Assembly: GCA_002050435.1 (NCBI GenBank)
Contig: MWYV01000036.1
Span: forward strand, 1-64,000
Direction of reading: 5' to 3'
Source of the DNA: Chitinophagales bacterium 33-2
GTDB lineage: Bacteria; Bacteroidota; Bacteroidia; Chitinophagales; Chitinophagaceae
DNA length: 64,000 nt
Shown: positions 13,320-32,016 of the stretch, piece after piece
Layout of the letters: every line of letters begins with the position of its first letter
Numbering within the stretch: position 1 is the first letter of the stretch
Notes under the pieces: generated by a model
Told to the model about the DNA's origin: nothing
The model's input: the letters and a program-made list of their open reading frames with translations, nothing else
Database searches by the model: none
Translations under genes and position numbers: made by a program

Positions 13320-15491
13320 ATGAATCGTCTTTCCATTCTGATACCAGTTTACAACGAGGAAAAAACCATCATCCTTTTACTCGATAAGATCAATCAGGTA
13401 GCACTTCATTATGCACTTGAAAAAGAATTTATTATTGTTGACGATGCATCTTCTGACACTACACCCTTGTTGCTGAAAGAATATATAGAGGCGCATCCTG
13501 AATTCAATATTCAGTATTTACGTCACGAAAAGAATAAAGGCAAAGGTGCCTGCCTGCGAACCGGGATTGAAAGAGCTTCAGGTGACATGATCCTGATTCA
13601 GGATGCTGATTTGGAGTACGACCCCTCGGATTATAATGCTCTGCTGCTGCCAATGATGGAAGGTAAGGCTGATGTGGTTTTTGGAAGCCGCTTTATTGGT
13701 GGCCGACCGCACCGTATTTTATTTTTCTGGCACAGCATAGGAAACAAAATCCTTACGTTTTTCTCCAACATGCTTACCAACCTGAACCTGACCGATATGG
13801 AGAATGGTTATAAGTTGTTCAGGGCCGACATCCTTAAATCCATTTTGCTTGTTGAAAACAGGTTTGGTTTTGAACCGGAGATTACTGCAAAAATTTCACG
13901 CATTCCTGATATCAGAATTTACGAGGTGGGCATTGCCTATTATGGAAGAACCTACAAGGAAGGAAAAAAGATCAACTGGAAAGATGGATTCAGAGCCGTG
14001 TATTCGATCAGTAAATACAATATTTTTTCAGCCGATAAAACATTTCAACCGGGTAATTCCCTGTTTCAGTTTAAAAACAATCCAGCTTATTGGCTGATGC
14101 TGTTATTTTTTATTGCCGGACTTGCACTGATCTTTCTGGCAAAAGGCACAGGAGATGAAGGCGATTCGATCATTCATTACCTCTATGCAAAACATGCATG
14201 GCAAAATCCGGAATTCTTTTTTAACCACTGGGCCAAACCTGTTTTTGTACTCACCGCTTCCCCTTTCGCACAATTTGGTATAGAAGGTATGAAGTTGTTC
14301 AACCTGCTGATATCTACCTCCGCCCTGTATTTTTCTTTTCTCTGTGCAAGACAGCTGAAGGTACCTTACCCCTGGCTGGTACCGCTGGCCATGGTTTTTT
14401 CGCCCTGGCTCATCATCATTACACTATCCGGACTAACAGAACCACTTTTCGCATTATGGATGATCGCAGGTATTTATGCGCTGCTAAAAAAGAAATGGAC
14501 TTTTGGTTATATATGGCTGTCATTTTTACCATTTGTAAGAAGTGAAGGGCTCATCATTCTATGCGTGCTGCTGGTTTACCAGGTTTTTAAAAAACACTAC
14601 CGGTATCTTCCTTTATTACTGGTGGGACACCTGTTTTATGCCATCGCAGGTTATTTTGTTCATAACGACCTTTTATGGGTATTGAATACCATGAGTTATG
14701 CGGTTTGGTACAGTGCATACGGCCAGGGCAACTGGATGCATTTTGTACATCATATGCCTGAAGTGATTGGAAAAGTTTTGGTTGTTTTTCTTTTGCTCGG
14801 ATTGATGTATGGATTCCTGAGAAAGCTGGGAAGGTTTTTCTTTAGCCAGGGAAATGCCATTTCAGATGAAGAATTATTTTTTGTTTATGGCATTTTCATT
14901 GCATATTTCCTTGGACATACCGCTTTTTGGGCGCTCGGAATTTTTAATTCTTTTGGCCTCGTAAGAGTGTTGGTAGGAGTTCTTCCACTCATTGCCATCA
15001 TTTGTGCAAGGGGATTTAATTTTGCCGCTTCCTTCTCAGGGAGCATGCTTTATAGAATCGTGATGTATGTTTCCCTGTTGCTCGTTATGACTTACCCATT
15101 TTTCAACAGCAAGTATTCCTTTAACTGGCAGCGGGATTTCCAACTTAAAGCGGACCAGCTTGCGCAGGAAAAAATGGGAAGCTTCATCAAACATCAATTC
15201 CCGGATTATAAAAAGCATGCCTTTTATTATGAAGCAGTTTACGTAAGCGTAGTGCTGGATATCAATTATTTTGATTCAACCGAACACAAAAGGCTAAGAA
15301 ATGCTTTTGAGAAAAATGATTTTCGTGCAGGAGCATTTATTGTCTGGGATGACTGGTTTGCACCAATGGAAGGTTATGTTGAAGAAAAACATCTTGATGA
15401 AGATGGGCGCTTTGAATTTATACAGGCTTTTGAAGAAATCAATTTCTGGAAGGTGAAAAGACGCGTAAAACTTTACCGCGTAAGGAATTGA
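13320..15491 (+). CDS. family 2 glycosyltransferase fused to polytopic membrane domain
   Basis: MNRLSILIPVYNEEKTIILLLDKI; IIVDDASSDTT; IQDADLEYDP; FGSRFIGG; then multi-TM PMT-like C-terminal half. Start moved to the second Met of the ORF. Confidence 0.88.
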   Translation: MNRLSILIPVYNEEKTIILLLDKINQVALHYALEKEFIIVDDASSDTTPLLLKEYIEAHPEFNIQYLRHEKNKGKGACLRTGIERASGDMILIQDADLEYDPSDYNALLLPMMEGKADVVFGSRFIGGRPHRILFFWHSIGNKILTFFSNMLTNLNLTDMENGYKLFRADILKSILLVENRFGFEPEITAKISRIPDIRIYEVGIAYYGRTYKEGKKINWKDGFRAVYSISKYNIFSADKTFQPGNSLFQFKNNPAYWLMLLFFIAGLALIFLAKGTGDEGDSIIHYLYAKHAWQNPEFFFNHWAKPVFVLTASPFAQFGIEGMKLFNLLISTSALYFSFLCARQLKVPYPWLVPLAMVFSPWLIIITLSGLTEPLFALWMIAGIYALLKKKWTFGYIWLSFLPFVRSEGLIILCVLLVYQVFKKHYRYLPLLLVGHLFYAIAGYFVHNDLLWVLNTMSYAVWYSAYGQGNWMHFVHHMPEVIGKVLVVFLLLGLMYGFLRKLGRFFFSQGNAISDEELFFVYGIFIAYFLGHTAFWALGIFNSFGLVRVLVGVLPLIAIICARGFNFAASFSGSMLYRIVMYVSLLLVMTYPFFNSKYSFNWQRDFQLKADQLAQEKMGSFIKHQFPDYKKHAFYYEAVYVSVVLDINYFDSTEHKRLRNAFEKNDFRAGAFIVWDDWFAPMEGYVEEKHLDEDGRFEFIQAFEEINFWKVKRRVKLYRVRN

Positions 15492-17041
15492 ACCGAATCA
15501 AGTGTTTGCTTAACTGAAGCAGGCAATGAAGGTTCATATCTTTTAAGATCTTCGTACAATTTCTGTTTGGTTTGCGGCGCTATTGCATAAAATCCAACCA
15601 CACTTCCGGCAGTCACAAAATTATCCGCCAGTTCCCATGTGCCCACCTGTTGCCAGGAAGCCGGAATTTTACCTTGATAAAGATGCGGATAAAATATGCC
15701 GATCTTAATATCATGCTCTGCAACATACCGGGATAGAAAATTGCTGTCGAATTGTTTTTTCTGACGGATCACCTCCAGTGTTCCGAGGCCTTCCAAATCG
15801 AATATGCGCATATCATCATTGTAAAAACTTAAGGCCCCGATGTCATTCATAGCAATGCCAAAGGATGGGAAATGCTGGTTTACAAATTTTGCCATTTGCA
15901 CCTGTTGTTCAGCAATATTTTTAGCTGCCCTTTTTGTGTGCGAGATCATCTGCACCCTGGAAAGCACAGGAAAAAAAACAATTGCAATCAGAGCAAGAAG
16001 GGCAAGGTTTCCTGTACTCCATCTCCACCGGAAAAACTGTTGAAAATCCTCCCAAGTTATAACGATACAAACAAACAAAAGACTAACCAGGTAAGCTTCA
16101 TATCGAAAGAGCCAGCCATAGCTGGCCAGTACAAAGTGCGATAGCGCTGTTGCAGCAAAAATCAAAACAGCTAAATGTTTCGGATGTGTTTTAAATGTTT
16201 TCCATCCGCCAATTGGATACATGAGAAGGTAGATGAGTGGAAAGACCATAAATGAAAACAACAAGCCTGTGGCAAGGATTTTTCCGGCAAGCGCGGAAAA
16301 GTATCCAAATACAGATCCGCTGATAAAATTACTCTTTGCAAGAAGCGAATTTGGAAAAAAGAACCCGCCTTTTGACAAAGAGAACATTCCAAAAATGATG
16401 ATAGGCAAAGCTATGGCCATCATCAATAAAAGAAATTGTTTCCAGTTTCTGAAAACAAGGAGCCAAGTACCTGCGGTGATACCTACAAGAAACGCCGCCT
16501 CATAGCGTGTGAGCACCGAAAGTGCTGCTACCAGGATATAGATCCCATTATTGATCTTTTCACCTTTCCACGACTTGTGGGTTAGATAGAAAAACAAAAT
16601 GGACAAAAGGATTTGCAAAGTATGTTCCATTCCCAATACAGCCATTCCTGCGAGGGGCACCAAAAAAATAAAAGAGAGATTGAGCAGCATTGCTTCAGAT
16701 AGGCGCATATGCTTTTTGGAGATCCGCACCATCACATAGACCACTGCAATGCCCATGATCCAGTTCAGAAGTAAGGGCAACCAGACTTTAATGCCAATGA
16801 GTGCAAAACCAAGGGCAAGTAATAACGTATAGAGTATGGAAGAGGAAGTGGAGGAAAACTCAAACTTAGTAATGCCCCATACTCCGTGTTCAACCAGGTT
16901 TTTCGAAATAGACATGTGAATGAAGGCATCGTCGAGCGGGTAAGAAAGCATCCCGGTATCCCTGAAACTGAAAAATACCTGTAAAGCCACCAGGATTGAA
17001 AAGCACAAACAGCAAATAATAAACAAAGCTTTCTGCCTCAT
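15473..17041 (-). CDS. PMT/ArnT-like polytopic membrane glycosyltransferase (putative)
   Basis: 522 aa multi-TM; YPLDDAFIHMSISKNLVEHGVWG N-terminal loop; overlaps preceding CDS convergently. Confidence 0.7.
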   Translation of the reverse strand: MRQKALFIICCLCFSILVALQVFFSFRDTGMLSYPLDDAFIHMSISKNLVEHGVWGITKFEFSSTSSSILYTLLLALGFALIGIKVWLPLLLNWIMGIAVVYVMVRISKKHMRLSEAMLLNLSFIFLVPLAGMAVLGMEHTLQILLSILFFYLTHKSWKGEKINNGIYILVAALSVLTRYEAAFLVGITAGTWLLVFRNWKQFLLLMMAIALPIIIFGMFSLSKGGFFFPNSLLAKSNFISGSVFGYFSALAGKILATGLLFSFMVFPLIYLLMYPIGGWKTFKTHPKHLAVLIFAATALSHFVLASYGWLFRYEAYLVSLLFVCIVITWEDFQQFFRWRWSTGNLALLALIAIVFFPVLSRVQMISHTKRAAKNIAEQQVQMAKFVNQHFPSFGIAMNDIGALSFYNDDMRIFDLEGLGTLEVIRQKKQFDSNFLSRYVAEHDIKIGIFYPHLYQGKIPASWQQVGTWELADNFVTAGSVVGFYAIAPQTKQKLYEDLKRYEPSLPASVKQTLDSVQFLTR

Positions 17042-17076: not shown

Positions 17077-17826
17077 TCATAGATCTGAAGATAATTGGGG
17101 GGTCTTTTCTTCTTCAGCTTCAGGTGCATGTTTTATTTTGTGGGCCTTTTTCCTTTCTGTTTCTTCTTCCTCTTCGCGTTTCTCAACAAACCAGGAAGCA
17201 ACAAAGGCAGTGAACGTACCAAATAAACCCACTCCCACCGTAATTAGGGCAACAGCGATAATTCTACCTTCTGTGGTTACCGGGAACCTGTCCCCATATC
17301 TAACTGTAGTTATGGTAACCCAGGCCCACCAGAGTGCATCCTCGGCGGTTTTGATATTGCTGCCCGGTGCATGCATCTCAACATTTAAAATTCCAATTGC
17401 ACAAAAAATTACCATTAAAACAGCAATGATCCCTACAGAAGTAAAAGTTCCACGCACCCTGTTTGCAAAATAATAAGTGGTAAGATGTTCTATAGACCTG
17501 AAGGCCCGTAATACTCTTAATAACTGGATGACACGGAATACTCTTGCCGCCAGGAAAATATCGAAGACGGGAATACTGGATAAAAGATCGATCCATCCCC
17601 ACCGCAGGTAATCCATCTTTTTTTTGGCAGAAAAGAGTTGGATCAGAAAATCCAGGAAAAAAATGGCACAGATAAAATAATCGATATCTCTTAACAACCT
17701 CAGGTTTTCAGGGGTTAGGTGCATGAAGCTGGTGATCACAAGTGAAATGATCACAAATAAGGATAATATAAACACCAACAGGTTGAAGGGATGCAGTGCT
17801 TTTTTCTGATTGATGGTTATGCGCAT
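17077..17826 (-). CDS. voltage-gated-type ion channel (Kv-like, 6TM)
   Basis: 249 aa; S4-like AARVFRVIQLLRVLRAFRSI; pore ALWWAWVTITTVRYGDRFPVTTEGR. Confidence 0.88.
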   Translation of the reverse strand: MRITINQKKALHPFNLLVFILSLFVIISLVITSFMHLTPENLRLLRDIDYFICAIFFLDFLIQLFSAKKKMDYLRWGWIDLLSSIPVFDIFLAARVFRVIQLLRVLRAFRSIEHLTTYYFANRVRGTFTSVGIIAVLMVIFCAIGILNVEMHAPGSNIKTAEDALWWAWVTITTVRYGDRFPVTTEGRIIAVALITVGVGLFGTFTAFVASWFVEKREEEEETERKKAHKIKHAPEAEEEKTPQLSSDL

Positions 17827-17852
17827 GCTGATTTACCTGGTAAGGTGAATAT

Positions 17853-18308
17853 TTACATTTTTTGTTTGTCAAACTTTTCATTTAAGATCCTTAACCTTTT
17901 GGAAAGCATCTTTAAAAACCCCCGTGCTATTTCAGGCCTTGAGTCGATCAGCTCAAAAAACGGGTCCTGGTCAATCTTGAAAATATAACAATCGGTATTT
18001 GCCTTTGCAGAAGCGCTCCTGCTTTCTGCATCCAATAAAGAAAGTTCACCAAAAACTTCTTTCTCCTTTAAAATAGCAAGCGTGGTGTTGGCTTTAAAGA
18101 TTTTTATTTCCCCCTGGTAAATAATATACATACTGTCTCCGAGTTCCCCTTCCTCAAAAATAACAGTGCCTTCTTCCAGTTCCATATCCTGCATCAGGGG
18201 TGCAAGATCCGCGAGAACATTTTCTGGTGTATCTGAAAAGATCCCAAGGGATTTCAAAAGAAAAACTTTTTCAATCAGCAGGAGCTTCTCTTGTTTTGGT
18301 GTCAGCAT
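17853..18308 (-). CDS. stand-alone cyclic nucleotide-binding (CNB/CRP-like) domain protein
   Basis: 151 aa; EEGELGDSMYIIYQGEIKIF and phosphate-binding cassette FGELSLLDAESRSASAKA. Confidence 0.92.
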   Translation of the reverse strand: MLTPKQEKLLLIEKVFLLKSLGIFSDTPENVLADLAPLMQDMELEEGTVIFEEGELGDSMYIIYQGEIKIFKANTTLAILKEKEVFGELSLLDAESRSASAKANTDCYIFKIDQDPFFELIDSRPEIARGFLKMLSKRLRILNEKFDKQKM

Positions 18309-18317
18309 AAATTAAGA

Positions 18318-21077
18318 TTAAATGGCGAATTTTGCAACCTCACTTAATAAAGGATGCTCAGCCTCAATATATTTAGAAATAAGGGTATTATCAATATGGT
18401 GATGCTGTTTTTTTGTGGTATACAGCGAACAGGCGGTGGTCCATTTATCATACATGAAGTCTTCCTGCTTTAAAATTGCGCTCAACACATTTTCTACATT
18501 CCTGAAAAAACTCATAGGATATAACTTTCTTAGCGCATAGATTTTTTCCTGTAGTTCAGAGGGCTCGAATATTGTATTGAAAAGAAAGGCAGTTTCCTTC
18601 TTAACTGTCATTTCAATAATTTCCATTGCATTGGCCACTTGCTCCTTTCCACCAGTATTAAAAGCAGTACGCACATCTTTTATTTGTTCCCGGTTGTAAA
18701 GACTGGCAAAAATATAGAGCAGCGAATCCCTGAGGCTTACCAGTTCCAGTTCGAGTGAAGTGGAAAGTATTTGATACCGTGGCTGATCCTTAGATAACAG
18801 CTTTTGCATATAAAGGATGCGGGCAGAAAGATTAAAGTACTGTTTTATATATCCTTCAAAAAGATGAATATATGGATGACTAATCCTGTAATTGGTATGA
18901 TACAACGTTTTAAAAACCAGTTGGGGATACCATGGAAGGGCTTCCAGCACTTTTAATAATACTTCCTGTGCTTCCGATCCTCCAATTCTTCCAATTAACC
19001 TGATTAGTTTTTCATTCTGTTGATTGTTTGAGTTTTGTGATACCATGAACTCATACATCACGGGAAGCGAATTGGCACCGGCATGCAGCAATGCCTGCAG
19101 CACCATTTTTTCATTTATGTGTATATAAGAAATCACTTTACCCAGCAATGCCGGGTCGGCCGTTCCCGAAGCGGCAGCAAAGGCCTGTTTTTTCACATCA
19201 TTATTTACATCATTCATCAGCATGTTGATCTCTTCAAAATATTCCGGGTCCTGAAGATCCTGCAGCACATGGGCTGCTTTCATGCGCTCTTCCCACCTGG
19301 AAGAACGGATCATATCATGTAGCCTTCCTTTAGCGTGTCCGCTTCCTGTAATATTGCCATAACGGAGCAAACCTGCCAATGCTGCCATTTGAATTTTGTC
19401 GTGCTGATTATCTGTAAAATCCATCATCAGGTCGTCCTTCATATTGATCCTGCAAAGGGCGCTGATGGTGGTTGCCTTGAGTGTAGTATCAGAAGTTGTA
19501 TCCAGGATATATTTCAGAATGACGCCGGCTTCCGTCATGTTCTTTTGTTCAATCAATTCAACAGCCTGCGTTTTAACGTTATCTGAAGGATGGGAAAGGG
19601 CTGAAAGGATGATTTCTTCTGTTACTGCTGAATGATTTATTGAAACCATCCGGAGTATATTAAAAGCTTCTGCTTCATTTCCTTCCGCCATCTTTTGTTT
19701 TAAATAATGAAGGGTAAATGAATCAGAATAAGAAAATTCACTGTTATTAAAAAAACGGTTGCCTATGGTTTTGATGAGGGTTTTAATGTATTGATGATTG
19801 ATACGGAAAATTCCAAAAATCCAAAGAGCACCAAGCACCATCAGCAGTATATTGATGGATTGAATATGGGAACTGTGGTCAAATCTGAACAGGACAAGGA
19901 GGAAAACACCGGTGAATAAATAGGCAAAAGGATCCATGATTCCTTTGGTAATGGTATGTGCCCTTAATCTGTCATGTGTGCTGAGGGGTTGCATGAGTGT
20001 AAGGAATACGGGCGTGTTAACAGAAGTACGCAGGATGTCAACTAAAATGGCCATCACACCAAATAAATATAAAATGGCATTCTGGCCGCGTGCATAGTAT
20101 TCAAGCACCAATACGGAAACGGCCAGAAGGATCATCAGTACCGGAGTGATCAACAATGACTTTATGGTGCCCATGCGGTTAATGAGGCGGCCCGTAAAAA
20201 TAATCTTAACCAGCATGGCTGCAACCCTTACCACGGCAAAGAACATGGCAATAAACTGGGCAAGTCCCACATCCGAATTGAAAGCCTCTTTCACCTTTGC
20301 ATAAAATGCAAAATTGGCCACAATGAACACACAGGATGCGATCACAGTAACAATAGCAATTCTCCTGATCAGCGCATTTACAGAAAAGTTTTTTACTAAA
20401 TGCCCTACATGCGCATGTTTATTGACAACCTGACGCACGGCATTGTGTTTGTGATGATGATGGTCGTGCTTTTTTATATTTTCAGATTGCCGGATGTGAT
20501 TGAGAAAAGGAAGCGATGCCACCATGCAAAACATGCCTGCCAGCAGCAGGTTCGCTGTTCCGATATAACTTACCAGAACCAATGCAAGGGAATACCCGAT
20601 GAATTTAGCAGGTATATCGCCCGCACTGATGATACCAAACAATCTTTTACTCTGCCTGACATCAAAAAGCAATGATGAAATGCCCCAGAACTCGAGGTTA
20701 TTGAGCAAATACAGCACATTAAAAAAGGCCAGCATCAGGTAGAGAAAATAGGAAGGCAGGAATTCAACCGACAAGCGAAAAAGCAGGCAGCTTGCAGCCA
20801 TAAAAATGGTGATGACACGCGCCAGCGTAATGATCTTTAGTTTCGCTTCGAGTTTTGCATAAACATAACCGGCAACCCAAAGTAAAAACGCAGAAAAAAT
20901 ATAAACTTTGGGTAATTCTTCAACACTGAAATTATCCAGGAATAAAGATATGGAAGCAGTAAAGAAAAAAGCAAGGCCGGCACCCTGGAAAAATTCAAAA
21001 ATAAAAAGTCTCCTGACCAGGTTCCATTCGCTGGCCCGCACATTCAGGAGGTGCAAAAAGGAAATGCCAGGTTTCAT
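18318..21077 (-). CDS. MFS/NTT (ATP/ADP translocase)-like membrane protein with C-terminal HEAT repeats
   Basis: 919 aa; about 12 TM, FDVRQSKRLFGIISAGDIPAKFIG resembles the NTT/MFS motif; from about aa 450 repeated HEAT-type helices (ILSALSHPSDNVKTQAVELIEQKN...). Confidence 0.8.
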   Translation of the reverse strand: MKPGISFLHLLNVRASEWNLVRRLFIFEFFQGAGLAFFFTASISLFLDNFSVEELPKVYIFSAFLLWVAGYVYAKLEAKLKIITLARVITIFMAASCLLFRLSVEFLPSYFLYLMLAFFNVLYLLNNLEFWGISSLLFDVRQSKRLFGIISAGDIPAKFIGYSLALVLVSYIGTANLLLAGMFCMVASLPFLNHIRQSENIKKHDHHHHKHNAVRQVVNKHAHVGHLVKNFSVNALIRRIAIVTVIASCVFIVANFAFYAKVKEAFNSDVGLAQFIAMFFAVVRVAAMLVKIIFTGRLINRMGTIKSLLITPVLMILLAVSVLVLEYYARGQNAILYLFGVMAILVDILRTSVNTPVFLTLMQPLSTHDRLRAHTITKGIMDPFAYLFTGVFLLVLFRFDHSSHIQSINILLMVLGALWIFGIFRINHQYIKTLIKTIGNRFFNNSEFSYSDSFTLHYLKQKMAEGNEAEAFNILRMVSINHSAVTEEIILSALSHPSDNVKTQAVELIEQKNMTEAGVILKYILDTTSDTTLKATTISALCRINMKDDLMMDFTDNQHDKIQMAALAGLLRYGNITGSGHAKGRLHDMIRSSRWEERMKAAHVLQDLQDPEYFEEINMLMNDVNNDVKKQAFAAASGTADPALLGKVISYIHINEKMVLQALLHAGANSLPVMYEFMVSQNSNNQQNEKLIRLIGRIGGSEAQEVLLKVLEALPWYPQLVFKTLYHTNYRISHPYIHLFEGYIKQYFNLSARILYMQKLLSKDQPRYQILSTSLELELVSLRDSLLYIFASLYNREQIKDVRTAFNTGGKEQVANAMEIIEMTVKKETAFLFNTIFEPSELQEKIYALRKLYPMSFFRNVENVLSAILKQEDFMYDKWTTACSLYTTKKQHHHIDNTLISKYIEAEHPLLSEVAKFAI

Positions 21078-21083
21078 AATCCA

Positions 21084-21683
21084 TCAATTGGTTATCATTC
21101 CTGCTTCTGACTTAAGGGAAGCAAGATGAATTTGTTTATTGTATTCCCTTGCATTTTGCGAAGTGGCTGTGAAATATTTGTGTGTATCAATAAAATTGAT
21201 CTGGACCTCTTCCCATTCTGTTACATCCTTTACAATCGCATATTTTAGAAATTCTTCTTTTAAATTTTTACCAATCAAACGGAAATCATCTCTTCCCAAA
21301 TAATCAAGATCGGCATCACAAATAATTTCTTCAAGATGCGATTTGGGTTTCTGCGGAATTTTTGTTGCCATGATCATTGAACAAATCGTATCCATCTCCT
21401 CATCTGTAAGTTCATGTGCAGCAAGATCTTTCCGGGCGAATTCACAGCTTTTCTCTTCGTGGTTCCTGTAAACAAATAGAAAGCCTGTATCATGGTAGAG
21501 TGCTGCAATTTTTAGCAATAATAAGGCTCTTTCATCAATAATACCCTCTTCCTGCGCGATTCGCTGCACGCATTCGATAACATCTCTTGTGTGCCCGCTA
21601 TGGTGATAAGTAAGTCCTTTTTGAATCTGGTCGTCAAGGATATGTAGTACACGGTCCTGTAATTTTTCAAATACAATTTTCAT
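21084..21683 (-). CDS. HD-domain phosphohydrolase
   Basis: 199 aa; YHHSGHTRDV, AALYHDTGF, ICDADLDYLGRDDF: H...HD...D metal motif. Confidence 0.9.
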   Translation of the reverse strand: MKIVFEKLQDRVLHILDDQIQKGLTYHHSGHTRDVIECVQRIAQEEGIIDERALLLLKIAALYHDTGFLFVYRNHEEKSCEFARKDLAAHELTDEEMDTICSMIMATKIPQKPKSHLEEIICDADLDYLGRDDFRLIGKNLKEEFLKYAIVKDVTEWEEVQINFIDTHKYFTATSQNAREYNKQIHLASLKSEAGMITN

Positions 21684-21717
21684 TCAATGGCAGTTAGTGG
21701 TTGGTGGGGAAAAAATT

Positions 21718-23736
21718 TTATCCGAATAGGCTGTCAACATCTACTTTCTTTTCATTGGTTTCAGGGGGAAGGTTGAGTTTATTTTCTATAGTTAAAGAAA
21801 CCACATCGAATTTTTCAATCTCATGATCAATAAAAAACATATCTACCTCTCCAACATTCTTGGCGTAAATTTTTCCCCTGTGGCGGCAGGTATACTTATC
21901 CTTTACCTGCTCATAAACTGCAGAAGAAATATTTACCTGGCCAGGCTCGCCATTGCTTTCCATACGGCTGGCAATATTTACAGTGCTTCCCCATATATCA
22001 TAAGCATATTTCTTTTTACCAACCACACCAGCCACAACCGGGCCGGAGTGAATTCCAACCCTGATCTCCCATGGAACCAGGCCCCGTTCGATCCGCTTTT
22101 GATTGTTTTGAAATACATATTGCTGAATGGCAATTCCGGCCTGAACAATTTCATAAACATGTCCTTTACGCGTTGTAGGAATACCACCTGCACACATATA
22201 TGAATCCCCAATGGTTTTTATCTTTTCAAGGTTGTACTTTGTAATGATCTCATCAAAGGCCACAAAACAATCATTCAGATCACTTACCAGTTCATTTGGC
22301 GTCATCTTTTCAGCAATTGATGTAAAGGATTTAAAGTCTGTAAACAGAACAGAAACATTTTCAAAATAACGAGGTGTTGCCTTGCCATGATCCTGCAATT
22401 CCCTGGCAACTTCTGTTGGAAGGATATTCAGTAATAATGATTCGATCTGGTCTTTTTGATAGTCGAGTACTTTATTGATTTTCACTTTAGCACGATAGTT
22501 CTTAAAAATGATGAAAGCAATAAAAAGTATCAATACAAACCCTATGGTAAAAGCCCATTTTATGGTTCTTTGCCGTTCGAGGTTGGCCTGTGTCAATGCT
22601 TTTTCTGTAGTGAGCAGATCCACTTCCCCCTGCTTTTTGGCAAGGTCGAAATCATATTGCAGAAAACCTACTTTCTTCCTGATCTTTTCATCGTATAGAT
22701 CATCCTTGATCTTATTCAGCTTGACCTGGTATGCAAATGCTTTCGAAAAATCTTTCACATCTGCATAGGCCTGTCCTGCTTTCTCATAAATCTCTTTCTG
22801 ATCGGTCAACGCGGTCATTTCTATTGCTACAGCTTCTGCTTTGCTGTAGTTGGAAAAAGCCTGCTCGAAATTTTTAATTTGAAAGTAAGCTTCAGCAAGT
22901 CCTACATATCCCTGGGCCAGCAATGTCCTGTTTTTTGTTTCTGCGATGGCAATTGCTTCTTTATGGTATTGAATGGCCTGGGGGTAATTCCTTTTTTTGA
23001 ACTGCAGTTTACCAAGGCCGTTCAGGGGAATTGGGCTATTAATATTTTCATTTCCCATCATCTGCAGGGCCTGCACAAAATTTTCGTTGGCTTTGTTTAC
23101 TTCTTCCTTATCAGAATAAATAATACCAATATTGGCATATACCAATCCAAGCCGGGCACTGTCTACTTTAATTTCTTTAGACAGTTCAATACATTTATAC
23201 AAGTATTCGAGGGCTTTATCCCACGTAGCTGTTTTTGTAAAATATACGGCAGCGATGTTATTCAATGCTTTAAACTGGATATTCTTATTATCCATTTTTT
23301 CCCCTATTCTCAATGAACCCAGCTGGTATTCCAAAGCTTTTGCATCATCTTCCTGGTAGGCATAAATTGCACCGATGTTTCCCATTAAGGTGGCAACATT
23401 ATAATCGTCATCCTGCGTTTTAAGGATCTCCAGTGAAAGTATCCAGTTCTCAAAAGCTTTTTCCACCTCCCCTTTGTAGAAGTGCACCAAACCAATATAC
23501 TTTAATGCATTGCCTTCGCCTTTACGGTATTTAGATTTTATGGAAACATCTTTTGCCTGGTTTGCCAGCAATAATGCCTGTTCTATGTCTTCCTGCAGCA
23601 ACTTATCGATCTGCCTGAACATATTATTGATCCTGACTGTGTCTTCATTTACCAGTGGAACCACACTCTGGGCATTTCCTGCAAAGCAAAAACAGGAAAA
23701 GATCAAGAGGATGAAAATGTTTTTCAAATACAGCAT
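21718..23736 (-). CDS. TPR-containing transmembrane class III adenylyl cyclase
   Basis: 672 aa; signal, TPR array, TM, catalytic VSVLFTDFKSFTSIAEKM...KIKTIGDSYMCAGG...YDIWGSTVNIASRME (Lys/Asp pair predicts ATP specificity). Confidence 0.95.
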   Translation of the reverse strand: MLYLKNIFILLIFSCFCFAGNAQSVVPLVNEDTVRINNMFRQIDKLLQEDIEQALLLANQAKDVSIKSKYRKGEGNALKYIGLVHFYKGEVEKAFENWILSLEILKTQDDDYNVATLMGNIGAIYAYQEDDAKALEYQLGSLRIGEKMDNKNIQFKALNNIAAVYFTKTATWDKALEYLYKCIELSKEIKVDSARLGLVYANIGIIYSDKEEVNKANENFVQALQMMGNENINSPIPLNGLGKLQFKKRNYPQAIQYHKEAIAIAETKNRTLLAQGYVGLAEAYFQIKNFEQAFSNYSKAEAVAIEMTALTDQKEIYEKAGQAYADVKDFSKAFAYQVKLNKIKDDLYDEKIRKKVGFLQYDFDLAKKQGEVDLLTTEKALTQANLERQRTIKWAFTIGFVLILFIAFIIFKNYRAKVKINKVLDYQKDQIESLLLNILPTEVARELQDHGKATPRYFENVSVLFTDFKSFTSIAEKMTPNELVSDLNDCFVAFDEIITKYNLEKIKTIGDSYMCAGGIPTTRKGHVYEIVQAGIAIQQYVFQNNQKRIERGLVPWEIRVGIHSGPVVAGVVGKKKYAYDIWGSTVNIASRMESNGEPGQVNISSAVYEQVKDKYTCRHRGKIYAKNVGEVDMFFIDHEIEKFDVVSLTIENKLNLPPETNEKKVDVDSLFG

Positions 23737-23757: not shown

Positions 23758-26700
23758 TTATTTCAGTATGACCAGTTTGCGGGTGGTTGCTTCACCGTTG
23801 TTTACCAGGCGCACCAGGTAAATTCCTGCAGGAAATTGATTTGTATTCCAATACCAGTTATACGACCTTCCTGCCTCAGTAAATCCTTCAAAAATTCCAG
23901 CTATTTCCGCTCCGTTTACTTGTAAAAGCCTGACAGAGGTAATTCCTGACTTTGAAGGGACAAAGGTAACAGTGAAACGATCCCTTGCAGGGTTTGGAGC
24001 AACAGTCATTCTTGCCTCATCCGCCTGCTTTGGTTGTTCCATCATTTTGCTTACGATAGTATTGGCCGTGCTTCCTACCAGGCAGGCAGTAAAATTATCC
24101 AGTGAACTGGTACTACCGGAATAGTCACCATTTCCATTTCCTGTTCCTCCTGCAACCACATAACTGATATGCGGATAAGGCGTTCCAGATCCGTATGGCT
24201 GGGAATTTACTGCAATGACAGCTCCCGGGCCAGACAATGAGCTATAAGTAAAACCTGTTCCTCCTGATGTTGGAGGATTGGAAGGAACCTGGTAAGCAGC
24301 CATGCTATAGAGCCATTTGGTGGTGATTGCTACATTACTGGTAAAGGAACCTGTAACGGAAGTAGAAGATTGTGTATTTTTTTTCTTTTTAAATCCAATA
24401 CTGGAATTTATAATAGCGCCACTGATAAAAATATCAGACGATGTATTGAGGTTGACAGGAACTATAGTGTTCCACATGCCCGTTTGCATATTAAATGAAG
24501 ATGAAATCGGCGACGAAGGTGCTCCTGCTATGATCCTTCCTCTCGGTATATTCCTGGTGGTTGCCCCTTCCATCGTGATTCCGTTGAATGATACGGCACC
24601 TCCGTTGTATTCAATGAACTGACCTACCTGGTTTAATTGGCCATTGAGCTTGATCTTCACCTGAACCCACATAGTGGTGGTGGGTGCGTTTTGACCGTTT
24701 GCCGCACTGGCATCTGTAAAGCTGTTGAAAACATTGGGGCTCAGGCCAGGACAATTGTCCGAGATATTAATAGTGGTACTACCAGTACTTGAATTAAAAT
24801 TATCATTCCCAATAAATGATCCCGTTACTGCGTATGTACCAGGTAAGGATGGAGCGGTTGCCGAAGTTGGGTAAATAGTTGCTCCTGTTCCAGTATATTC
24901 AAAACTAATGGCCGGTGTCAAAATATCTCCTGTTCCACCTGCCCCATACGCAAATCCTGTAGCCGGTTTCGGTGAACCATCATAATTAAATATTCCACCT
25001 GTAATGCTAACCGTTGAATTTGCCTTATTGATCACTAAAGTTCCATTCACACTTGGTGCGGAATAATTCGTATTTACAAGCGATGCCGAAAGAGGATAAT
25101 TTCCGGCATTTGTCTGCCCATTACCAGTGATGGTTACAACTGTTAATCCTAAAGGAGTAGTTGTAGCTGTAGCAGATTTCGGAGATCCATTATAAGTATG
25201 CGTCAGGTTTGAAAGTGTAATGGATGCTGAGGCTTGCGAAATAGTAATATTTACTGAACCGCTTGCATTATTATAGTTCCCTGTAACATCTGTAAAGATC
25301 CAGTTAGCAGTACCGCCAGGCGCATTGGTGTATGAAGCTCCGAGGTCCAATCCTGTTAAAGCAACGTCTCCGATACCGGTTGCACTTCCTGTAGCGCTAT
25401 GTGCTGCCGCGTCATAGGTTCCGCTATATCCATTTACTGTAATAGTTGCATTGGCTTTCCCGATGCTGTTATTAACAGTCCCATTGGCTGCGTTATAATT
25501 ATTGTTTCCGGCAAAACTCCATGCATCACCTGTATAAGTTCCGGCATTTGTATGGGTTGTAGCAGTAAGGTCAAGCAGGCTATTTAAATTAGCCGGACTA
25601 ATTGCTTCAACTCCTGCCGCAGTTCCAGTAGCTGTATGTGGATTGGCATCAAAGGCAACACTATAGCCTGATATATTAATAATGGCATCGGCTTTACCTA
25701 TAGCATTATTTATTGTGCCGTTCGCAGGCTCGTAATTTTCATTCCCTTCAAAAATCCATGCATCTGCAGTATAAGTACCTGCATTGGTATGCATAGTGCC
25801 TGAAAGGTTCAGTAAGGATGCTAGATTGGCAGGCGTAGCTTCCACTCCTGTTGCTGCACCCGCAGCGGTATGAGCAACACCATTATATACAACACTGTAA
25901 GGAGTTACAACAATGGTGGCTGTTGCTTTATTGATTATAAATTGAGCCGGGGCAGATTCTCCCGCATTGTAGGAAATATTGCCATCAAAAACAGCTTTCA
26001 CACTATAAGTTCCCGAATTGGTAGGAGCAGTGGTTGTTTCTGCATATACCGTTGGACTCACACCTGAATATTTCAGTGTAACAGCAGGAATAAGCGTTTC
26101 ATTATTAGTGCCTGTAGCTGATCCTGTAGCTGGTTTTGGAGTACCGTCGTAAGTGTATGGTCCACCCGCAGTGACTGTTATTGTTGGAGTAGCTTTTGTT
26201 ATAATTAAATTGCCGGCCAAATTATGCACGTTCATATTTGAATTAACGAAAGCACCGCCGATAATATAATTCTCACCCACAGATAACCCTGTTACCAGGT
26301 TGATACCAAGGTTTGGTCCGACAATTCCTCCATTTTCCACCTCGTTTTGAGAGAAGATGATCGGTGTATTATTCGCAAGGCCGTTTGTTGAAGCATTGCT
26401 TGAAACAATTAATCCCAATCCACCACTGCTAACAATTAATCCGAGACCGCCACTGCTCACGATCAATCCCAATCCGCCACTGCTTACCATCAATCCCAAT
26501 CCGCCACTGCTCACGATCAATCCCAATCCACCACTGCTCACGATCAATCCCAATCCACCACTGCTCACTATTAATCCTAATCCCCCGCTACTTACCATGA
26601 GTCCTAATCCACCACTGCTTACCATCAATCCTAATCCACCCGTTCCACTGCTCACCATTAATCCCAATCCACCACTGCTTACCATTAAACCCAATCCACC

Positions 26701-29700
26701 GGAAGTATTAGGTGCATAGGTCATCACAATTCTGGAAGTCTTAAGCGGAAGGGCATTAAACAAATATGTTCCATCCACAGCCTGTGTGAGCTCAGTTGAA
26801 AGTGGTGATCTTAATGCAACTGCATTCAGATCAGAAGTAAGTGCTGAAAGATCGATCAAGGCGTTAGGGTTAACCACCTGGTTATTTACGTCGACATAAC
26901 GAAGCACACCATTAATATTCATCAGGCTTAAACTAGCATCTGTTGCTAATGCGATCTTCTGATCGATAGCAATTTTTAACGGCTCTGCTGTTGCTGTCAA
27001 CAACTGTTTCATACACATAACCCCTGGAATAGAAGGATCAACGTAATTGGCCACGATTGAACCATCAGAAAGTACTACAGGCTGTCCCTGTGGAACAGCA
27101 ACGTAATTTCCTGAAGTATTCATTTGAACCAATCCCATTGAATATATATAATGAACGATTCCAACAGCTGAAAGATCATTCGTAGCAGCTCCATTATTGG
27201 TAATTCCATGTAGTTGATGCACGATCATATTATTATAGATCGGCATTTTCGAAACCAACTTGTTTACAGTGCCTTCCTGATTGATAGAAAGCAATGTTTG
27301 TGCATATCCTGAATTGTAAACATTCACACCTCCTACATTAGCAGCACTGCTAAATGCCTGAGGCGTTACAATGCCCCTTGATGTAGTTCCAGCTGAAGAA
27401 ATGGTCTGCTGTAGTGCAATATTGACATTATTTGGATTTGCCAGGTAATTTATAAATGAAGCCTTATTCAAATCCACCACATTTACCTGTGCGGCATTTG
27501 CATTAACTGCCGCTACCATTTTATTGTTAACGATATCAAATGCACGGCTGCTTAACACAGTTTTTAAACTTACCATGAAAGCAAGGTTCTCGGTAAGTAA
27601 TTTTGAAGAGAAAGCAAGTTTAATGGCCGCTGCAGTGGCATCTGCAGGAAGGCCTAATGCAATTTTCAATGCCTGCTGGTCAGCTGCATTCAATAAATCA
27701 AGATCATCTAACAAAGCAAATGCATTTGAGGAAACAGATGATTTATGTGAAAGTTCAAGATAAGCAAGCGCAAGTTCCATATTTGCTGGCGCCAGGTTAT
27801 CCAAAATCACGTACTCGTATTCTATTTCACCAATATAATCTCCGTAAACAATGTTTTTATTTTTGGGTTTTACCTGCACATTCAGGGGTTCAACAAAAAG
27901 AGCACCTGCCTGGATCACGTAATCATATAATTCCCAGTTACCAGCAGTATCTGCTGCTGGAATTACAGGAGCAATGTTGAATGGAGAAACTGAAGCATTA
28001 CTGCTAAGGATTGCATTGGTAGTTAAGCTAAGATTAGTTAACCCAAACATCGCAATTTCATCAGGGGAAGTCACCTCGGTAGTCACACCATTTAGCTTTT
28101 TATACAGTTTGTGTGTAAAGGCTGGCATTTCGCCTAAGAACTTTCTGTTTTTATTATCTGCAGCAATAGTGACCTGGAATTTATTATCACCATTTATATA
28201 ATAAGTATTGGAAGGGCCACCATCATTTCCCAGCACTGCCATTGAAGGATTATATGCAACCAGTCCTCGTTTATCTTGAAAAATAGGTATCGTTGCGTTG
28301 ATGATACTATCACCCACGCTACTTGTTATTTCCAGTAGAACACCATTTAATTTTAATGTAATCGTACCCGTAAAGTACTTACCCAACACTTTTATTTTAG
28401 TAGAATCAGATGGAGCAAACGGGTATTGTATTCCTTCAATTACAGGTGTAGGATTTGCAAAAGATCCAATTGCATTATCAATTCTTACAAGTCCGGCTCC
28501 TCTTTCGAGGACTGTTCCGGGTATCACCTGGACGTTATCCCTGATCAGGTCCTTAATCTGCACTGGCGTAAGCGTACTTGAGGTTACAAACTTTTTTTGT
28601 GCTTCCAGCAAGAGGGCAATTCCACCGGCAACGTGAGGCGCAGAAGCAGATGTTCCAAAGAAATTTTTAATTCCATCGCCTTCAGGATCAACTAAAGATC
28701 CCATATCAACCGAAGTATTTACACCATCAGGCGCAACATAATCTGGCTTCTGGGAACTAGTGCCATAATATTTTACTCCTCCACGGGAAGTAAAAGGTTC
28801 AATTATGGTTGGCGTAGTATATCTCACTGCTCCAATGGTATGGGCTTCCGGAACATTTGCCTGTCCAACAATAGTACCTGCATTTGAGCCGGTTGAAGGA
28901 TTAAGGAAAGTAAAATCACCCCTGAAAACAATGAATTTAAAATAAAGCCCGGGAGGTGGAGTGCCATCACAAACGATCATTAATTTGATCTCGGTAGTGA
29001 CTTCAGTTGTTGGATTAGGATTCACCACAAAACTCATGATCTCCATCGGATCTGCACTTAAGTTGATCCTGTTAAATCCTATCAGTTCACCTGCCTGGTT
29101 AATGGCATAAAGATCCACGTCGGTTGTTGTTCCGACAGCACCCAAAGATGAAAATGCATCTTCCCACTGAAGGCCGATCGTGTACACACCTGGTTTTCCG
29201 GGTTGTGCTTTCACTATGGCTGACTGGTAAATACTGCTGCCGAAATTGTGAGCCACACCCGTGATATCAAATGGCAGCGGTGTTCCTGTAGCAGGAACAA
29301 ATGCACTTTCATAAGATTTAGTTGCGTAATTTCCTGCAGCGGTCACATAATGTTTTCCCTGGGCAACTACATTTTTCACTGCCTGTGCAATCACACCATC
29401 CGTAAAGAAAGGCTCGGTAATAAATGAAATATCATCAACCAGGGCATCGCAACCCACGTTTGCCAGATCCTGAATACCTATTGCAAAATCTCCTGCGGTT
29501 AAAAAACCGGTTCTGAAATATAGTTCAGCCTTAGGGGCTACATCGTAAACGATCTGCAACATAGAACGGCCTTCATCTGAACCTGAGCCATATGGATACT
29601 CTTTGAGTACGTTAACAGGAACAGGATTAATAATTTGTAATGGACCAGGTAAATTACCTGGCAGATCCCGGTTTTCTATATCTGTACCTGCCCCGTTTTT

Positions 29701-31485
29701 ATTGTTGTAACTATCAGAAAGTACTCCTATTTTATATCCTTCACCTGTAAGCTTGTACCCACCTCTTGAGTAAGCAGAACCCATAGCAAGGTCGCCACCG
29801 GCAATTCCTGTAACATTTTTACTGATGGCAGGATAAACTGGTCGCACATAGCTTACTTTATTATTGAAAAAATCATCAGAATTTAAAAAACCAAGGTTTG
29901 CAATTGGATACCAACCTGAAATGATCACACTGTTGCCGTTTGAAATGGTATCCACCATTCCGTAGGTCGTTGTTAGTTTCACATACACATCATTGGTAAA
30001 TGCCGGTCTTGTAATTACATCAATTAAAACCTTATCTGGATTTCCATTATTATAACGCAGCTGATAGGTAACATTTGTGGCAGGATCTACCACACCGCCG
30101 GCAAGGAATAAAACATCAAGGTCTGTTGTTGTTTTGTCAAACGGTTCTTTAAGTTTCCCCCCTGGTGGTGGCTGCATCACACCCTGGACACAATGAACAG
30201 ATGTTACAATTGTAAAATCAGATAAAGAATTCGATCCTGCAGAACAGTTGCCACTTTCATCCGTTATGGTAAGAATGTATTTTCCGGGTGTGGTAACGCC
30301 CGATAATATCAAGGAAGTATTATTTTGAGGAACAACTCCTCCATCCTCCGCTGTCCATAAATAGGAAATGCCAGAACCTGTTTTTCCCAACCCGGTTAAA
30401 TTTATGGAAGCACCCGGACAATTCTGAAAGATCCGGTCTTCACCTGCATCAGTTCCTAAACCACAGGGATCAACTACTTCGTGCGTTATCAGGACTGTTG
30501 AGCCCAGGTAGATCACGTGGTTACTATACAAAGCACCAATTAGCTTAGTTGCATTTCCACCCGATCCAAGATTGATGTCTCCGTTATAAGCATTAACTGT
30601 TCCCTGCCATTGAATTCCATTGGAGTTTCCATTACTCATAGCGAAAGCAGTTCCGCTGCCCCAAACGTGCAGAATGATCCTTGAAGCACTGCCTCCATTT
30701 GTAACGACCACTGTTGATTTACCTAATGAAACGGTGGACTTGACATAAACTTCTATCAGGTCACCCGGATTGGTATTGCCATTAAAATCAAAAACCAGCG
30801 TGTTTTGATTTGAATTATTGATGCTGTTGAGATAATATTTTCCCGTACCATTAAACGTAAGGGTTTTATTCCCATTGAAGGATACATCTTTCCGCTGTGC
30901 ATTTGGTTCAAGAACCGTTGAACTGTTGATGTTTTGAGTACCTGTAAAATTGGGCATTGCCAAAACAGCTAAGGTAGGCAGGGCTGGGATGTTTGGTGAA
31001 GCGATAAAATACTGACCGGGAGCAAGTGTTGGACCTACATAACTGGCACCAGAGGGCTGAGTTACTTTTCCATTAATTAAAATTCCTCCGCCCAAAGATA
31101 TATTTCCATTTACATCAATATCCCCTTTCAGGAGGCCGTTGTTTCCCCCCAATAATGTGGTTCCTGAAAAACTGGCCGGTGTATTTACAGGTCCAGCTGT
31201 TATTTTACCATGAACACTAGTATTATTTGATAATTCAACAATACCATGGCTATGAATATTCCCTTTTATTATAGGGCCACTTGATGTTTTCACATAAGTA
31301 TTGCTTCCCACCGCACCGCTTTCGATTGTAGCGCCTGAAATATTAACGCCCAGTTTTCCAAATAAAACAAATTGATTCAGTGCAACTGAAGTTCCGGAGC
31401 TGGTTTGAGCAAAGGCCTTATTAAAACCCAACTGAAAAAAAGAAATGATCAATACTCCAGAAAGAAATGAAATGGAATGGCGCAT
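23758..31485 (-). CDS. giant T9SS-secreted mosaic protein: N-terminal polymer-forming-like region, subtilisin-like (S8) domain, GGLGL[MI]VSS tandem repeats, MBG-type domains, T9SS type A sorting domain
   Basis: about 2575 aa from MRHSISFLSG (ORF opens at 31518); VLSDSYNN...SDEGRSMLQIVYDVAP...VTAAGN...FGTSASAPHVAGG; repeated YDG/MBG-like units; C-terminal VAPNPARDRFTVTF...AGIYLVRLVNNGEATTRKLVILK. Confidence 0.92.
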   Translation of the reverse strand: MRHSISFLSGVLIISFFQLGFNKAFAQTSSGTSVALNQFVLFGKLGVNISGATIESGAVGSNTYVKTSSGPIIKGNIHSHGIVELSNNTSVHGKITAGPVNTPASFSGTTLLGGNNGLLKGDIDVNGNISLGGGILINGKVTQPSGASYVGPTLAPGQYFIASPNIPALPTLAVLAMPNFTGTQNINSSTVLEPNAQRKDVSFNGNKTLTFNGTGKYYLNSINNSNQNTLVFDFNGNTNPGDLIEVYVKSTVSLGKSTVVVTNGGSASRIILHVWGSGTAFAMSNGNSNGIQWQGTVNAYNGDINLGSGGNATKLIGALYSNHVIYLGSTVLITHEVVDPCGLGTDAGEDRIFQNCPGASINLTGLGKTGSGISYLWTAEDGGVVPQNNTSLILSGVTTPGKYILTITDESGNCSAGSNSLSDFTIVTSVHCVQGVMQPPPGGKLKEPFDKTTTDLDVLFLAGGVVDPATNVTYQLRYNNGNPDKVLIDVITRPAFTNDVYVKLTTTYGMVDTISNGNSVIISGWYPIANLGFLNSDDFFNNKVSYVRPVYPAISKNVTGIAGGDLAMGSAYSRGGYKLTGEGYKIGVLSDSYNNKNGAGTDIENRDLPGNLPGPLQIINPVPVNVLKEYPYGSGSDEGRSMLQIVYDVAPKAELYFRTGFLTAGDFAIGIQDLANVGCDALVDDISFITEPFFTDGVIAQAVKNVVAQGKHYVTAAGNYATKSYESAFVPATGTPLPFDITGVAHNFGSSIYQSAIVKAQPGKPGVYTIGLQWEDAFSSLGAVGTTTDVDLYAINQAGELIGFNRINLSADPMEIMSFVVNPNPTTEVTTEIKLMIVCDGTPPPGLYFKFIVFRGDFTFLNPSTGSNAGTIVGQANVPEAHTIGAVRYTTPTIIEPFTSRGGVKYYGTSSQKPDYVAPDGVNTSVDMGSLVDPEGDGIKNFFGTSASAPHVAGGIALLLEAQKKFVTSSTLTPVQIKDLIRDNVQVIPGTVLERGAGLVRIDNAIGSFANPTPVIEGIQYPFAPSDSTKIKVLGKYFTGTITLKLNGVLLEITSSVGDSIINATIPIFQDKRGLVAYNPSMAVLGNDGGPSNTYYINGDNKFQVTIAADNKNRKFLGEMPAFTHKLYKKLNGVTTEVTSPDEIAMFGLTNLSLTTNAILSSNASVSPFNIAPVIPAADTAGNWELYDYVIQAGALFVEPLNVQVKPKNKNIVYGDYIGEIEYEYVILDNLAPANMELALAYLELSHKSSVSSNAFALLDDLDLLNAADQQALKIALGLPADATAAAIKLAFSSKLLTENLAFMVSLKTVLSSRAFDIVNNKMVAAVNANAAQVNVVDLNKASFINYLANPNNVNIALQQTISSAGTTSRGIVTPQAFSSAANVGGVNVYNSGYAQTLLSINQEGTVNKLVSKMPIYNNMIVHQLHGITNNGAATNDLSAVGIVHYIYSMGLVQMNTSGNYVAVPQGQPVVLSDGSIVANYVDPSIPGVMCMKQLLTATAEPLKIAIDQKIALATDASLSLMNINGVLRYVDVNNQVVNPNALIDLSALTSDLNAVALRSPLSTELTQAVDGTYLFNALPLKTSRIVMTYAPNTSGGLGLMVSSGGLGLMVSSGTGGLGLMVSSGGLGLMVSSGGLGLIVSSGGLGLIVSSGGLGLIVSSGGLGLMVSSGGLGLIVSSGGLGLIVSSGGLGLIVSSNASTNGLANNTPIIFSQNEVENGGIVGPNLGINLVTGLSVGENYIIGGAFVNSNMNVHNLAGNLIITKATPTITVTAGGPYTYDGTPKPATGSATGTNNETLIPAVTLKYSGVSPTVYAETTTAPTNSGTYSVKAVFDGNISYNAGESAPAQFIINKATATIVVTPYSVVYNGVAHTAAGAATGVEATPANLASLLNLSGTMHTNAGTYTADAWIFEGNENYEPANGTINNAIGKADAIINISGYSVAFDANPHTATGTAAGVEAISPANLNSLLDLTATTHTNAGTYTGDAWSFAGNNNYNAANGTVNNSIGKANATITVNGYSGTYDAAAHSATGSATGIGDVALTGLDLGASYTNAPGGTANWIFTDVTGNYNNASGSVNITISQASASITLSNLTHTYNGSPKSATATTTPLGLTVVTITGNGQTNAGNYPLSASLVNTNYSAPSVNGTLVINKANSTVSITGGIFNYDGSPKPATGFAYGAGGTGDILTPAISFEYTGTGATIYPTSATAPSLPGTYAVTGSFIGNDNFNSSTGSTTINISDNCPGLSPNVFNSFTDASAANGQNAPTTTMWVQVKIKLNGQLNQVGQFIEYNGGAVSFNGITMEGATTRNIPRGRIIAGAPSSPISSSFNMQTGMWNTIVPVNLNTSSDIFISGAIINSSIGFKKKKNTQSSTSVTGSFTSNVAITTKWLYSMAAYQVPSNPPTSGGTGFTYSSLSGPGAVIAVNSQPYGSGTPYPHISYVVAGGTGNGNGDYSGSTSSLDNFTACLVGSTANTIVSKMMEQPKQADEARMTVAPNPARDRFTVTFVPSKSGITSVRLLQVNGAEIAGIFEGFTEAGRSYNWYWNTNQFPAGIYLVRLVNNGEATTRKLVILK
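26398..26702 (-). repeat. 11-unit 27-bp coding tandem repeat (GGLGL[M/I]VSS)
   Basis: Direct reading of translation: units M,M,(GT)M,M,I,I,I,M,I,I,I; DNA unit (plus strand) approx. CCAATCCACCACTGCTNACNATNAATC. Confidence 0.97.
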
Positions 31486-32016
31486 AAAAATAGATTGGTT
31501 TGTGAATATATGGTTCACATAAGGGTTATTGAACTTGAAAAAATGTCTATCATGTAGCGTTAACTACTACATAAACACATAGAAGGCGGATTAATTCTAA
31601 AAGAGAAGATTTTAGAAGGATTGGAACAGAACGCAATGCGATAACGCTAACCAGTACAAAATAATGGGTAAAAGTAGTTATTCTATCAGTAACTACAAAT
31701 TTTATATTCAAAATATACCTAATATTTATCACAGAAAAAACTAAGTAATAACCCCTAGAATTATCTAATTCACATAAAATCAATCCTTTCCGTTTTTAAA
31801 CTTAATAAAATTTTAATCCTGGAATGTTCTAAACGAGATAAAGAAGTTGTGAACCCTGTGCTTTCAACTATCCTTAACTAAATTTCGCTTTTCAGGCATA
31901 GTTTTTTAATCCACATTTGTGCGTAACTATTGCTGGCGGGGTCCGCGCTGTTTTATATATCTTGTAAGCGTAAGCACCGCCCAACCCCAAATTGATTCAC
32001 ACTAACAAAAAATAAT

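Follow-up and report, generated by a model that had tools for sequence, protein, structure and literature searches.

The window analyzed here, a 64,000-nucleotide stretch of contig MWYV01000036.1 (positions 1 to 64,000) of Chitinophagales bacterium 33-2 (class Bacteroidia, family Chitinophagaceae), contains a tight run of minus-strand genes that make up a candidate cyclic AMP (cAMP) signaling cassette. In gene order, the cassette encodes an adenylyl cyclase (AC), an HD-domain protein, a transporter with HEAT repeats, a cyclic-nucleotide-binding (CNB) protein, and an ion channel:

21718..23736, minus strand: class III AC, 672 aa (Pfam Guanylate_cyc, 1.7e-53, plus TPRs)
21084..21683, minus strand: small HD-domain hydrolase, candidate cAMP phosphodiesterase, 199 aa (Pfam HD, 5.8e-7)
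18318..21077, minus strand: NTT-like transporter (ATP/ADP translocator fold) with C-terminal HEAT repeats, 919 aa (Pfam MFS_1, 5e-7, plus HEAT_2)
17853..18308, minus strand: stand-alone CNB protein with an intact phosphate-binding cassette, transporter-fused in relatives, 151 aa (Pfam cNMP_binding, 2.7e-20)
17077..17826, minus strand: six-transmembrane voltage-gated-type K+ channel without a CNB domain, filter TTVRYGD, 249 aa (Pfam Ion_trans, 7.9e-21)

The five minus-strand open reading frames that an original prediction had placed at 23736-17077 are real, their gaps of 34, 6, 9, and 26 bp were reproduced, and the motifs it named are all present in the encoded proteins. The ends it assigned to the cassette did not stand, as the same-strand run extends both ways into two further genes:

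23758..31518, minus strand: giant secreted protein with MBG domains and a T9SS sorting tail, 2586 aa, paired with the TPR cyclase in many loci
15473..17041, minus strand: membrane protein 3′ of the channel and 35 bp from it, 522 aa

A gap of 21 bp separates the gene for the secreted protein from the AC gene, which is downstream. Promoter scans of the sigma-70-like and Bacteroidetes -33/-7 types gave no excess over chance, and the operon structure thus rests on the gaps and on conservation. The flanks of the cassette hold ordinary metabolic and envelope genes.

Conserved core of the cassette

We gathered relatives of the NTT-HEAT protein from whole genomes and from 80 named genome contigs and mapped their neighbors, which yielded 81 loci; neighbor counts refer to the 47 loci that had 8 kb or more of flank on each side. 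A CNB domain was directly downstream of or fused to the NTT-HEAT protein in 46 of these 47, an HD gene was no more than 5 kb away in 39 (some HD distances near 3.8-3.9 kb are an artifact of overlapping genes), and a class III cyclase was no more than 10 kb away in 25; a 23-kb stretch in the family is expected to hold such a cyclase about 1% of the time. The giant secreted protein was present in 18 of the 47 and the channel in one. Some lineages carry the HD gene upstream and in the same direction, and others carry it downstream in convergent orientation, so the linkage has outlasted rearrangement. In Flavisolibacter ginsengisoli (L054), all six genes, from the secreted protein through the cyclase, HD, NTT-HEAT, and CNB to the channel, are present in the window's order. 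The arrangement is not a product of chance, since it is seen again in dozens of genomes. Conserved co-occurrence of all five predicted families was therefore borne out in part: the cyclase, HD, NTT-HEAT, and CNB genes form a core that extends beyond close relatives, and the channel, shared only with F. ginsengisoli among the 81 loci, lies outside this core as a lineage-specific passenger. Cyclases near NTT-HEAT loci are of several unrelated architectures, namely, TPR-transmembrane proteins, transmembrane cyclases accompanied by an FAD oxidoreductase and a DUF6989 gene, and receiver-domain cyclases beside a histidine kinase.

By sequence and predicted fold, the carrier is an NTT-family protein. 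The profile of its membrane half matches solved ATP/ADP translocators (the ADP,ATP carrier 9j3n at 2e-15), and the top Foldseek matches of its model are Arabidopsis AtNTT1 and Chlamydia NTT1. The earlier MFS label can thereby be narrowed to the NTT (ATP/ADP translocator) family, while the HEAT part of that description stands. A Pfam TLC search returned nothing in the window's genome and nothing in the control genomes either, so family membership was settled by the profile and fold searches; the window protein does not match this Pfam family, and its relative L147 passes the cut-off. The HEAT repeats lie C-terminal to the NTT part, with the CNB domain adjacent or fused.

As for the CNB protein, it forms a single protein with NTT-HEAT in 14 of the 81 loci, among them a clean NTT-HEAT-CNB fusion (L012) whose tail closely resembles the window CNB. 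The full model of the fused protein had modest global confidence (pTM of 0.57), so it is the fusion rather than this model that points to contact between the CNB and HEAT parts. The pocket residues G87, E88, D93, R97, S98, and A99 are invariant in 76 of 76 CNBs, and the window copy carries a phosphate-binding cassette of the cAMP type (G-E-...-R-S/T-A), in which R-S-A is also the motif of Escherichia coli CRP. The only other CNB protein of the window's genome is of the Crp/Fnr type and lacks the pocket Arg. In distant NTT-HEAT proteins, the CNB is absent or its pocket is degenerate; none of these 36 loci has a cyclase nearby, and 14 of the 34 genomes concerned lack a class III cyclase, which is present in all 13 genomes with a pocket-intact cassette. 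Judged from these sequences, a role for the CNB protein in reading cAMP for the NTT-HEAT protein is well supported.

The AC has a predicted signal peptide or transmembrane segment at residues 1-21, a TPR region, a transmembrane segment at 390-417, and a catalytic domain at 458-637. Given the two hydrophobic segments, the TPR domain is likely periplasmic and the catalytic domain inside. Alignment to the C2 domains of AC8, AC5, and AC9 placed D467, D511, K507, D580, N587, and R591 at the two metal Asp, the Lys/Asp base pair, and the Asn/Arg transition-state positions of class III adenylyl cyclases, in agreement with the ATP-type residues noted in the original prediction. The window AC is the only PF00211 match in its genome (90% complete; the search covered class III), and in all six genomes that combine an intact cassette with exactly one class III cyclase (G000, G009, G024, G031, G129, and G220), the cyclase is at the cassette locus. 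For cyclase counts, we used a hidden Markov model (HMM) built from clean catalytic domains, as a looser HMM also caught TPR histidine kinases. With the fusions and the 100% conserved pocket, the presence in the cassette of the only class III cyclase found in the genome upholds the proposal of a self-contained cyclic-nucleotide module in which a TPR sensor cyclase signals through the CNB protein to the transporter. The proposed gene set was incomplete, having overlooked the secreted S8/MBG protein that pairs with the cyclase and whose relatives have a subtilase S8 domain in addition. Within the giant protein of the window, a 27-bp coding tandem repeat of about 10.5 copies (26408-26700) encodes the peptide GGLGLMVSS.

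The HD protein and its link to class III cyclases

We compared genomes with and without the HD protein in a sample of the family (61 genomes; HD+ above 200 bits) and in a sample of the class Bacteroidia (60 genomes; HD+ above 190 bits). A class III cyclase was found in 24/24 HD+ versus 6/37 HD- genomes of the family and in 32/32 HD+ versus 2/28 HD- genomes of the class (Fisher p of 1e-11 and 5e-15, respectively, uncorrected for relatedness). Across both samples this amounts to 55 distinct HD+ genomes, because the window's genome sits in both, and every one of them has a class III cyclase. This coupling does not extend beyond the class Bacteroidia. In 13 of the loci that we fetched, a single chain holds both domains, with the HD C-terminal to the cyclase; two of these (L160 and L162), about 900 aa long, have the order TPR-cyclase-HD and correspond to the window's two neighbor genes joined. 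In a tree, the fused HDs nest with cassette HDs, separate from the HDs of proteins with a Pycsar membrane effector domain (HD-PycTM). One such HD-PycTM protein, with an HD of the same broad family, is encoded in the window's genome (L143:5547-6860, 437 aa), and many genomes of the family have HD proteins comparable to it in length and score.

The structure model of the window HD protein is confident (pLDDT of 96.9). Its fold matches in the PDB begin with a generic HD hydrolase, followed almost entirely by PDE5, PDE4, PDE2, and PDE10 at a TMq of about 0.6-0.73, and the metal residues H31, H64, D65, and D123 are invariant or near-invariant; the protein thus combines the HD metal site with the PDE-like fold of a 3′,5′-cyclic nucleotide phosphodiesterase. 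Pfam PDEase_I (PF00233) gave weak matches in 18 of 49 HD members (best, 8e-4) and no match for the window copy. The original prediction had left the role of this protein vague, as a hydrolase of some nucleotide. Co-occurrence and the fusions tie it to the cyclase as a near-obligate partner, and its hydrolase reading can be narrowed: the protein is probably a cAMP phosphodiesterase.

Other arrangements of the HD family were seen as well. At L131:6834-8303 and L127:7929-8810, it is fused to or beside YitT/DUF2179 membrane proteins near cyclases, which suggests another output, and L154:3250-4971 encodes a reverse-order HD-membrane-cyclase fusion of 573 aa with a divergent cyclase domain.

A proposed cAMP circuit and its alternatives

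We consider it likely that the cassette is a dedicated cAMP circuit, with synthesis by the AC, hydrolysis by the HD protein, and read-out by the CNB protein, that controls an ATP/ADP-translocator-like carrier. In such a circuit, the secreted upstream protein would probably supply or report an outside stimulus to the TPR domain, which would sense it on the periplasmic side, and the catalytic domain would make cAMP from ATP inside the cell. The small HD protein would hydrolyze cAMP and so set or reset its level, and the CNB protein, with cAMP bound, would dock on the HEAT arm and open or close the carrier to a nucleotide or a related phosphorylated solute.

We lean slightly toward a broader proposal as well, namely, that the small HD family is an unrecognized class of bacterial cAMP phosphodiesterases that, in Bacteroidia, routinely accompany class III cyclases and often form single-chain cyclase-phosphodiesterases with them, and that the two activities jointly drive cAMP-gated transporters, NTT-HEAT here and others elsewhere. 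SulP-STAS-CNB and Na+/H+ exchanger-CNB transporters adjoin cyclase-HD fusion genes at L148:5493-7706 and L155:1-2874, which suggests that cAMP regulates transporters more widely.

Several points weigh against a cAMP circuit. We found no biochemistry for any cassette protein; the genome is 90% complete, and the cyclase search covered class III only; about half of the loci with the other three core genes have no cyclase within 10 kb; and the counts come from related genomes and lack phylogenetic independence, which makes the p-values look stronger than they are. As regards the HD protein, HD domains hydrolyze many nucleotides, the PDEase_I matches are weak, the top fold match is a generic HD hydrolase, phosphodiesterases are over-represented in the PDB, and cyclases beyond the class are found without this HD. 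The same circuit might accordingly run with an HD protein that hydrolyzes another nucleotide, for example, one imported by the carrier, or that serves as a noncatalytic partner of the cyclase. The catalytic diversity of the superfamily speaks for this version, as do the uncharacterized nature of the closest fold match, a further match to YpgQ, and the HDs that adjoin or are fused to YitT membrane proteins without a CNB. However, the near-perfect match in occurrence between this HD and class III cyclases across Bacteroidia, the 13 cyclase-HD fusions with their varied sensor domains, and the conserved metal ligands lead us to regard it as unlikely, though with some claim to attention.

The remaining alternatives concern the target and the purpose of the signal. 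Regulation of the ion channel in trans by the CNB protein, part of the original prediction, would fit the short distance between the two genes (26 bp in the window and 43 bp in F. ginsengisoli), but the other 80 loci have no channel, the CNB is fused to the transporter and was never seen fused to this channel, and the channel, with its single Ion_trans domain, lacks the C-linker and CNB of CNG/HCN channels. We rejected the channel as the CNB target on conservation, and such regulation is very improbable. The K+ filter of the channel reads TTVRYGD in the window (17077-17826) versus TTVGYGD in F. ginsengisoli (L054 13262-13975); the Arg codon, AGA, is one step from a Gly codon, so the difference is either genuine or a mistake of the assembly. 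Pycsar systems, to which the original prediction drew a parallel, couple cCMP or cUMP signals to lethal effectors. The cassette shares with them the logic of a cyclase and a cyclic-nucleotide receptor, PADLOC gave weak matches to PycC and to the PycTIR CNB, and a separate protein joins a member of the HD family to PycTM. Yet the cassette holds no lethal effector, with no TIR, PycTM, or nuclease domain; the base residues of its cyclase are ATP-type, the transporter partner is recurrent, the TPR sensor is probably periplasmic, and the flanking genes are ordinary. Membership in Pycsar was rejected, and a related anti-phage second-messenger system is scarcely credible. Strongly disfavored, finally, is ordinary clustering of proteins that each act separately: the many loci without a nearby cyclase and the variable HD orientation would suit it, but the CNB-NTT-HEAT and AC-HD fusions and the retention of neighbors through rearrangement would not.

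The cassette offers a minimal test bed, since its cyclase, putative hydrolase, receptor, and transporter are each present once and no further class III cyclase was found in the genome. If the proposed cAMP circuit is right, an entire bacterial class would gain a candidate phosphodiesterase, the plant adenylyl cyclase-phosphodiesterase CAPE would have a counterpart in bacteria, and the uncharacterized NTT-HEAT proteins would have a physiological role. In the open-access literature, whose coverage is incomplete, we found no paper on the role or removal of cAMP in Bacteroidota, nor any on this HD family or a bacterial AC-HD fusion; with this coverage, a missing paper is weak evidence of novelty.

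Comparison with known systems

A secondary transporter under CNB control has a precedent in SLC9C1, the cyclic-nucleotide-gated Na+/H+ exchanger of sperm, which is gated by a cytosolic CNB domain. SLC9C1 entries were present in the fold search with the carrier, at low TM-scores, and differ from it in having another transporter fold, a voltage sensor, and the CNB in cis. CAPE combines cAMP synthesis and hydrolysis in one chain with a class III cyclase, but it is a streptophyte protein with an N-terminal class I phosphodiesterase, whereas the bacterial HD is small and lies C-terminal to the cyclase or in a neighbor gene (PMC5159850, PMC8115329). Also close to the cassette are the NTT-HEAT proteins with an adjacent or fused cNBD described by Major, Embley, and Williams in 2017 (PMC5381601), which have the same transporter-HEAT architecture and a cNBD gene immediately downstream or fused. 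The available part of that paper also places NTT-HEAT proteins in cyanobacteria, Chlamydiae, and oomycetes and suggests cAMP from adenylate cyclase as the cNBD ligand, perhaps tuning nucleotide uptake (PMC5381601). Relative to that part of the paper, the HD protein, the linked class III cyclases, the conserved pocket, and pocket loss among NTT-HEAT proteins whose genomes often lack cyclases are additions made here (PMC5381601). The transporter and its sensor were thus already known, and the tight cyclase linkage and the HD partner appear to be new.

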